From the NCBI GenBank assembly GCA_025359945.1, contig JANYDD010000063.1, forward strand, positions 1 to 64,000: DNA of 64,000 nt, read 5' to 3'. The notes under the pieces are model-generated. The model was not told the DNA's origin and searched no databases. It saw only the letters and a program-made list of their open reading frames with translations. Source of the DNA: Bdellovibrio sp. (GTDB taxonomy: Bacteria > Bdellovibrionota > Bdellovibrionia > Bdellovibrionales > Bdellovibrionaceae). A program made the translations under genes and the position numbers. The number at the start of each line of letters is the position of its first letter. The stretch's first letter is position 1. Shown here piece by piece: positions 53,561-55,780 of this stretch.

Positions 53561-53840
53561 GAAGTGGACCCTAATTTTTTAAGGGGATGTGTCCACGGCT
53601 TACCCTTAAGAGCCTTCCCGTTTTAGTTTGGAAACCAGCTCAGACCCAAAAACAAAATAATTTGAAACGCTGACCAGAACTAATACTTGCATTGTTTTGA
53701 GTGCTAAGAAAAAATATGTTTCAACTTAACATAATTGTTGTTGGGAAAATTGACCGAATATGGGATTAGTGGAAGTCTATGAAAACTTCAAAACGCGCGG
53801 TTGATTTGACGAAAAGAATGGAGTTTGAAATTTGGAATTG

Positions 53841-54803
53841 ATGATGGGCATATCTCAATATTTTTTCGATGGAAGATTAAGAAAACAATTTTTGAGTATT
53901 TTGTTAGTGCCAATTCTGTTTTCAATGACCGCTTGTGAGAGTTTGACCGCGAAACGAAATGGACCATCTCGAAAAGACGTTGCCGTTGCACCAGCGCTTC
54001 ATGGTCCTAGACAGCGGGTTTTAATCTTACCTTTCTTGACCGAGAATCTTAAGAACAGCGAGAATTTGCGGGCGCAAGCCAAGAAAAGTTTTGTTGAAGC
54101 TTTGGTGAAAGCTGGAACTTTTGTGGTGGTCGATAGCGAAGATTTGAAAGTTGATTTCAAAAAATTCTATAATAATTCAGAATACCAGCTAACGGATATG
54201 GCCAAAGAAGTCTTGGCGCTGGGGATTCCAATTATTATGGAAGGAAAAGTTCTGACCTTTAAAGTGAAACGCAAATCCGGAACGGTTGGCGTTTTCAAAC
54301 AGGTGAAATCGGAATTTGAATCCAGTGTGCGGGTCCGGCTATTAAGCTCAAGCTCTGGGCGCGAAATGTTAAACACGACCAAGACAATAACTTTAGAAGA
54401 GCCCGGAATTCGTGTGCCTGACGATATGACTTTCGATCAACTGATGGAAGAAAACCCTGAACTGATCCAAAAATTAGTCACGGACGCATTTCTGCAATTT
54501 CTGCCTTCTTTGAGCCAGGTCACCCAAAAAATGGGGTGGGAGGGCCGCATCGCTATGATTGATTCGGACAAAATTTACTTAAACGTTGGCCAATTGACCG
54601 GACTGAACGTGGGCGACATTCTTAAAGTCAGTGAAGCCGGTGAAGATGTGTTTGACCCCCAGACGGGGACTTATATAGGCAAAACTCCGGGCCGAATGAA
54701 GGGTACTATCGAAATCGTTAATTTCTTTGGTCAAGACGGCGCTGTTTCGGTTATCCATTCCGGAGCAGGTTTTAAAGAAAATGACCGAGTCGATGTCTAC
54801 TAA
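53841..54803 (+). CDS. FlgT/CsgG-like envelope lipoprotein
   Basis: 320 residues with a leader and lipobox-like LFSMTAC, so probably a lipoprotein. The body has RVLILPFLTENLKNSENLRA and the CsgG-like MAKEVLALGIPIIMEGKVL, then a C-terminal SH3-like part (IYLNVGQLTGLNVGDILKV; AVSVIHSGAGFKENDRVDVY) that is seen in FlgT-type proteins. ATG 53841 or 53844; GGA lies just upstream. Its end overlaps lipB by 11 bp. With the gene at 52331 it may form part of one envelope or flagellar-base complex (inference). Confidence 0.65.
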   Translation: MMGISQYFFDGRLRKQFLSILLVPILFSMTACESLTAKRNGPSRKDVAVAPALHGPRQRVLILPFLTENLKNSENLRAQAKKSFVEALVKAGTFVVVDSEDLKVDFKKFYNNSEYQLTDMAKEVLALGIPIIMEGKVLTFKVKRKSGTVGVFKQVKSEFESSVRVRLLSSSSGREMLNTTKTITLEEPGIRVPDDMTFDQLMEENPELIQKLVTDAFLQFLPSLSQVTQKMGWEGRIAMIDSDKIYLNVGQLTGLNVGDILKVSEAGEDVFDPQTGTYIGKTPGRMKGTIEIVNFFGQDGAVSVIHSGAGFKENDRVDVY

Positions 54804-55689
54804 TTTTAATTTACCGGAAAACGAAAGCTCTTTCGAGAACAGCACGTCTTATTGCGAAGTCGCTTCTGTTCGCCATCAGAAAGTCCCTGACGGGGAAGCA
54901 TGTGAAGGTGATTCTATTTTCCTGGACCATCCACCCAAAAAGGATAGACACACCGGCAGGGGCGAAGCCCGTTGGCTGGGAGCAGTAAATTATATTCGTG
55001 GGTTAAAGTTCCAAGAATTCTTGGACTCAAAAATCAGCCAAGACCCGGATCAATTTTTTATTTTGGGATTAGAACACCCACTGGTGGCTACATTGGGAAA
55101 AAGAGCTTCGTCTGCGGAAATCATTTCCCCTGACGTTGAGGGTCATCCGGAAATTCCGGTAGTGCATGTTCAACGCGGTGGCCACGCCACGCTCCATTTG
55201 CCGGGCCAATTGGTGATTTACCCCATCGTCCATCTACAAAGAATGGGCTGGGGGGTCCGTCAGTATGTCGAGCTTTTGCTTCAAACCTCTGCAAAAACTT
55301 TAGCGCATTTTGGGGTACCCACGCAGTCCCAGCAGGCAGGACTTTTCACTAACGCGGGAAAAATTGTCTCGTGCGGAATTAGGGTGAAAAAAAATATTTC
55401 AACTCATGGATTGGCTATGAACATCAACAATTCGCTGGATCTTTTTTCGCAGATCAAAACTTGCGGAGTGAACGGGCAAGCGATGGATTCTTTGAAAAAT
55501 CAAATTCAAAAAGAAATTCCGCTTCAGGACGTATTTCAAGTTTGGATCAACGAATTTAACAAAGTTCTTGAAAAGACTGAAAAGTCTGAGATAACTGAAA
55601 AATTCGATGGTCTCTTGGCGCAGTTGGTAGCGCGTTTCCTTGACATGGAAAAGGTCACTGGTTCAAGTCCAGTAGAGACCACCATTTAA
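54793..55689 (+). CDS. lipB: Octanoyltransferase LipB; frame runs through the tRNA-Val gene
   Basis: Transfers octanoate from ACP to lipoyl domains. Motifs are intact: QRGGHATLHLPGQLVIYP, GKIVSCGIRVKK (catalytic Lys), THGLAMNIN, IKTCGVNG (catalytic Cys). From ATG 54793 the frame has 298 residues, longer than the usual 210-250, with about 55 extra N-terminal residues. At the 3' end no stop occurs before 55687: the last 27 codons, LLAQLVARFLDMEKVTG and beyond, are simply tRNA-Val read in frame. The start overlaps the previous gene by 11 bp. Whether the tail is translated is unclear. Confidence 0.88.
   Translation: MSTNFNLPENESSFENSTSYCEVASVRHQKVPDGEACEGDSIFLDHPPKKDRHTGRGEARWLGAVNYIRGLKFQEFLDSKISQDPDQFFILGLEHPLVATLGKRASSAEIISPDVEGHPEIPVVHVQRGGHATLHLPGQLVIYPIVHLQRMGWGVRQYVELLLQTSAKTLAHFGVPTQSQQAGLFTNAGKIVSCGIRVKKNISTHGLAMNINNSLDLFSQIKTCGVNGQAMDSLKNQIQKEIPLQDVFQVWINEFNKVLEKTEKSEITEKFDGLLAQLVARFLDMEKVTGSSPVETTI
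55609..55684 (+). tRNA. tRNA-Val (anticodon GAC), CCA encoded
   Basis: 76 nt with GGTCTCT/AGAGACC acceptor stem, GCGC D-stem with AGTTGGTA loop, anticodon stem TTTCC/GGAAA holding loop TTGACAT (GAC), T arm ACTGG-TTCAAGT-CCAGT, discriminator A and encoded CCA. It lies entirely within the open frame of lipB on the same strand. There is no independent promoter visible in the coding part upstream. Confidence 0.97.
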
Positions 55690-55780
55690 TTTTTTTGCGT
55701 ATTAGAAGTTCTTCAAAAACTCTTTTAAGGCCCGCTCAAAATTAAATAAAAGCAACGCCACGAATAGAAGCGAGGTTTAG

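Follow-up and report, generated by a model that had tools for sequence, protein, structure and literature searches.

How a bacterial reading frame comes to pass through an entire tRNA gene, and whether the arrangement regulates anything, are the questions raised by a lipB locus on a contig assigned to Bdellovibrio sp., in which the gene for an octanoyltransferase-type LipB runs into tRNA-Val(GAC) on the same strand. The window referred to throughout is the whole stretch of 64,000 nucleotides that was analysed, and the features of the locus are collected in Table 1.

Table 1. Features of the lipB/tRNA-Val locus, in window coordinates
Feature	Position	Strand	Basis or remark
CsgG-like gene, stop overlaps lipB start (ATGTCTACTAA)	53832..54803	+	same gene order in G011
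lipB open frame (octanoyltransferase-type LipB + tRNA-encoded C-terminal tail)	54793..55689	+	ORF reading, Pfam, NCBIfam, alignment
LipB catalytic domain, residues 69–255	54997..55557	+	Pfam PF21948
-35-like hexamer TTGAAA, putative tRNA promoter inside lipB	55568..55573	+	equivalent of the TTGAC of the order
3.7 imperfect in-frame 9-nt repeats (TGAAAAGAC), linker from LipB core to tRNA	55569..55601	+	repeat analysis
-10-like hexamer GATAAC, 16-nt spacer, 13 nt 5' of tRNA	55590..55595	+	also in G011
tRNA-Val(GAC) gene, CCA encoded, entirely within lipB frame	55609..55684	+	ARAGORN, Rfam
lipB stop TAA, ending 5 nt beyond tRNA CCA	55687..55689	+	ORF reading

The lipB frame and its product

From the ATG at 54793–54795 to the TAA at 55687–55689 the frame is free of stops and comprises 298 codons, encoding 298 amino acids, with the tRNA inside it; the original prediction had read both the open frame and the position of its TAA just past the CCA in the same way. 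The product matches the Pfam family LplA-B_cat (PF21948, 107 bits over residues 69–255) and the NCBIfam lipB equivalog TIGR00214 (121.9 bits, cut-off 83.55), while scoring under the stricter PRK lipB cut-offs. Lys190 and Cys224, which we take to be the catalytic Lys–Cys pair, are invariant in 38 aligned LipB sequences. The domain match ends at residue 255 and conservation in this alignment around residue 260, N-terminal of the tRNA-encoded part, and a conserved C-terminal tail is absent, the relatives differing in length and sequence beyond about residue 263.

An AlphaFold2 model is confident over the core and extends the last helix through residues 244–289, with moderately confident pLDDT values of 73–78 across residues 261–290. 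Such a helix might be taken to indicate that selection maintains the tail as a component of LipB, with the tRNA doubling as the code of a C-terminal helix, but a helix predicted for a linker of charged repeats counts for little and a similar tail is found in no relative, the C-termini being variable; this explanation is considered very improbable.

The tRNA gene and the geometry of the overlap

The tRNA is called by both ARAGORN and Rfam (70.8 bits over 55609–55681, gathering threshold 29), and displays a cloverleaf, a GAC anticodon and an encoded CCA. All of its 76 nt lie inside the lipB frame, its first base being position 1 of codon 273, and together with the two T that follow it makes up 26 codons ahead of the TAA, encoding the peptide GLLAQLVARFLDMEKVTGSSPVETTI. 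The tail had originally been counted as 27 residues, a figure that includes the Asp codon before the tRNA. Two of the three frames of this tRNA-Val are closed, frame 1 by a TAG in the D loop and frame 2 by a TGA that U33 forms with anticodon bases 1 and 2, and lipB enters in frame 0, the only one without a stop.

Crossing a tRNA in this manner is not in itself exceptional. When the 30 distinct tRNAs of the genome were read in three frames, 34% of the frames had no stop over their whole length (for frame 0, 19 of 30), and 20 of the 30 carried TAG at bases 8–10; since about a third of tRNA frames are open, run-through after loss of a stop needs no special cause. The rare part is the entry of a frame into a tRNA, and not its crossing: among the 30 tRNAs examined (the genome has 35 in total), an ORF exceeding 70 codons extends from upstream on the same strand as far as the tRNA only at the tRNA-Val behind lipB.

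The tRNA leader (55598–55611) and trailer (55681–55694) are complementary over 14 nt (86%), with a T-run after them, and their pairing could give the tRNA precursor a longer acceptor stem. A conserved RNA hairpin immediately 5' of the tRNA was also considered and rejected, as the window gave a z of -3.5 but the relatives a mean z of only -0.37.

The repeat linker and loss of the stop

The LipB core is joined to the tRNA by an array of short in-frame repeats, which also holds the promoter-like hexamers of the tRNA discussed below. The repeats make it plausible that their expansion replaced the old end of lipB and was the route by which the stop was lost; the earlier state of the lipB end, before the repeats, is present in no close relative. 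A sequence or assembly error that took out a stop, or shifted the frame, before 55609 was also weighed, as the genome is a draft of 106 contigs, no closer relative was found in the contigs searched, by protein or by exact pattern, and none of the other genomes compared belongs to the genus of the window. Such an error appears quite unlikely, however: the linker consists of coherent in-frame repeats, and in genome G011 (locus L002), which provides the best-scoring homologue, lipB likewise extends into the tRNA, in a phase different from that of the window, so that overlap in this family needs no error.

The lipB/tRNA-Val pair among relatives

Across the order 81 lipB loci were surveyed. A same-strand tRNA lies 3' of lipB, no more than 299 nt from its stop, in 43 of the 81 loci and is Val-GAC in all 43; outside the order but in the same class, tRNA-Val(GAC) is downstream of lipB in two of three genomes, 599 nt (L120) and 43 nt (L121) from the stop. 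As the pair is common across the order and also found outside it, the adjacency is old.

The frame enters the tRNA in nine of the 43 adjacent loci, seven ending at the TAG of tRNA bases 8–10, G011 at the TGA of U33–G34–A35, and the window passing through. A comparison of lipB ends among relatives, which the original prediction had called for to learn whether the frame stops before the tRNA, therefore gives a divided answer: it does so in 34 of the 43 and does not in eight loci besides the window, G011 included. The relatives show graded states, namely a gap, a stop at bases 8–10, a stop at the anticodon and full run-through, and about eight changes between overlap and gap were placed on a lipB tree, which is a quick one with many weak branches. 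In seven of the nine overlaps the frame closes at the first stop that the tRNA can offer. This would fit selection against translation deeper into the tRNA, a point which is not pressed as the loci are partly related. Many relatives within the family have the tRNA without a lipB match in the approximately 1.5 kb taken upstream of it, which indicates that the tRNA does not depend on lipB.

In genus g5 (L021, L023 and L080) a partial tRNA-Val copy, the 5' part of about 45 nt, lies some 3 nt past the lipB stop and is followed by the full tRNA; further partial copies occur elsewhere in g5 genomes, as though elements had integrated at tRNA-Val there. tRNA genes are common integration sites, and it had been proposed that the 3' end of lipB in the window was replaced long ago by an element integrated at the tRNA. 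The partial copies between lipB and tRNA in g5 lend this some plausibility, but lipB stands directly 5' of tRNA-Val in many families, the upstream gene order is common to the window and G011, and this part of the window holds a single copy of the tRNA. With the adjacency being old, the remnant of a tRNA-directed insertion was rejected as a candidate and such an origin is judged exceedingly improbable.

A putative tRNA promoter in the lipB 3' end

A -35-like TTGAC is present 29–66 nt 5' of the tRNA in 25 of the 43 adjacent loci, compared to 1.5 on average and at most 7 in shuffled sequences and 0–5 in nine control windows. Being present in each of the three lipB frames, and past lipB stops as well, the motif is conserved at the level of DNA rather than of protein, and when the loci are aligned on it a TA...TT element, the best -10 match, appears at a spacer of 15–17 nt although it had not been selected for. 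Of 27 loci with a nearby tRNA, 18 have TTGAC around the lipB stop; of 37 lacking one nearby, 2 do. From this distribution, across the order, in every frame and beyond the stops, tRNA-Val is probably served by a promoter of its own that lies within the 3' end of lipB or next to it, which speaks for one separate start at least. In L121, outside the order, the TGA stop of lipB itself forms part of the promoter-like TTGAC element, 45 nt 5' of the tRNA (TCTTGACGA).

Within the window alone the match to a consensus promoter is not significant, the hexamers agreeing at 9 of 12 positions, a score reached by 14% of shuffles, and exact TTGAC is rarer in the window's own family than across the order. The counterpart in G011 is TTGACG-17-GATAAC, in which GATAAC is identical to that of the window. 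As the window match is weak by itself, its promoter is inferred from the order-wide motif.

Transcription of lipB, ribosome rescue and a second LipB

The overlap between the stop of the CsgG-like gene and the lipB ATG suggests that the two genes are transcribed together and, with the gene order shared by G011, that lipB is probably translated from the upstream operon transcript. Should such a transcript extend into the tRNA, RNase P would leave a lipB mRNA without a stop, as originally pointed out, and this holds: cleavage at 55608/55609 would remove the stop, and the genome encodes tmRNA and SmpB for rescue. Nonstop lipB mRNA could arise only where transcription reads through.

A second LipB homologue (G000:C39:38808-39386; L118:542-1177), 30% identical, is located directly 3' of the end of a dihydrolipoamide-dehydrogenase-like gene, named from reading its sequence, and could make the tRNA-linked copy less critical. 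Genomes of genus g6 are without a strong match to the tRNA-linked LipB type, and most g6 genomes among the matches listed have only a weak one, resembling the second homologue.

These elements allow a functional coupling to be imagined, in which RNase P frees tRNA-Val, the nonstop lipB product is destroyed by trans-translation and tRNA maturation thereby limits LipB. The adjacency is old and overlap recurs, the CsgG-like start overlap suggests a lipB transcript able to enter the tRNA, the rescue system is encoded, and the seven loci with TAG at bases 8–10 would lose their stop on cleavage too. The proposal that lipoylation is coupled to tRNA supply nevertheless does not fare well against the promoter-like TTGAC across the order, the 34 adjacent loci in which lipB ends before the tRNA, the relatives having the tRNA without lipB alongside, the second LipB and the drifting position of the stop, and we regard it as unlikely, though the least unlikely of the alternatives considered.

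Tolerated overlap or regulatory device

Considering the question posed at the outset, the overlap is best explained as tolerated drift, with the tRNA mainly on its own promoter, and we hold this to be likely, reading from sequence, in preference to a regulatory switch. lipB and tRNA-Val(GAC) are ancient same-strand neighbours in the order. In the window the linker of lipB carries no stop, the tRNA is entered in its stop-free phase, and the first in-frame TAA comes after the CCA. In the main, transcription of the tRNA most likely starts at the promoter in the lipB 3' end, as the order-wide motif suggests, and LipB would be made from the upstream operon with some 40 additional C-terminal residues, of which the tRNA encodes 26, a tail that is tolerated and probably useless. 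A minority of lipB transcripts would be cut by RNase P, lose the stop and be cleared by tmRNA/SmpB. Against drift, overlap recurs on several branches, which may be a sign that it is favoured and not simply tolerated. In that case it may be a selected device, whereby excision of the tRNA yields nonstop lipB mRNA and trans-translation sets the level of LipB versus tRNA maturation, an option to which we give rather little credence. The lipB/tRNA-Val overlap is real and unusual, and the probability that it has a regulatory role is small.

The locus is a clear natural case of a bacterial enzyme gene with a whole tRNA gene in frame, and shows that tRNA consensus bases provide preformed stops in two frames out of three. 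It suggests that the 3' end of a protein-coding gene can accommodate a tRNA promoter, and gives an opportunity to see, in nature, how cells cope with tRNA processing that would remove the stop codon of an mRNA.

Comparison with known systems

Spurious proteins translated from tRNA genes are among the members of AntiFam. The lipB tail resembles such peptides in that its GSSPV is a translated tRNA T-arm, and differs in continuing the frame of a genuine enzyme, for which reason it may well be translated. The AntiFam collection has been described (PMC9710616). A literature search gave nothing on lipB with tRNA-Val, and the titles and abstracts found for tRNA genes overlapping protein genes contain no report of a lipB-type arrangement.

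Operons carrying both tRNA and mRNA are found in Escherichia coli, such as tufB with its tRNAs and secG–leuU. As in these, protein and tRNA genes adjoin on one strand at the lipB locus; there, however, the protein frame ends outside the tRNA, whereas the lipB frame covers the tRNA from end to end and a separate promoter probably serves the latter. In animal mitochondria protein genes overlap tRNA genes, an organisation termed tRNA punctuation. The lipB locus is alike in that a protein frame runs into a same-strand tRNA and that excision would cut the mRNA within the frame. The mitochondrial cut leaves a U or UA that polyadenylation completes to a stop, whereas at lipB it would leave an intact GAT codon without any stop, and the tRNA is overlapped over its entire length.
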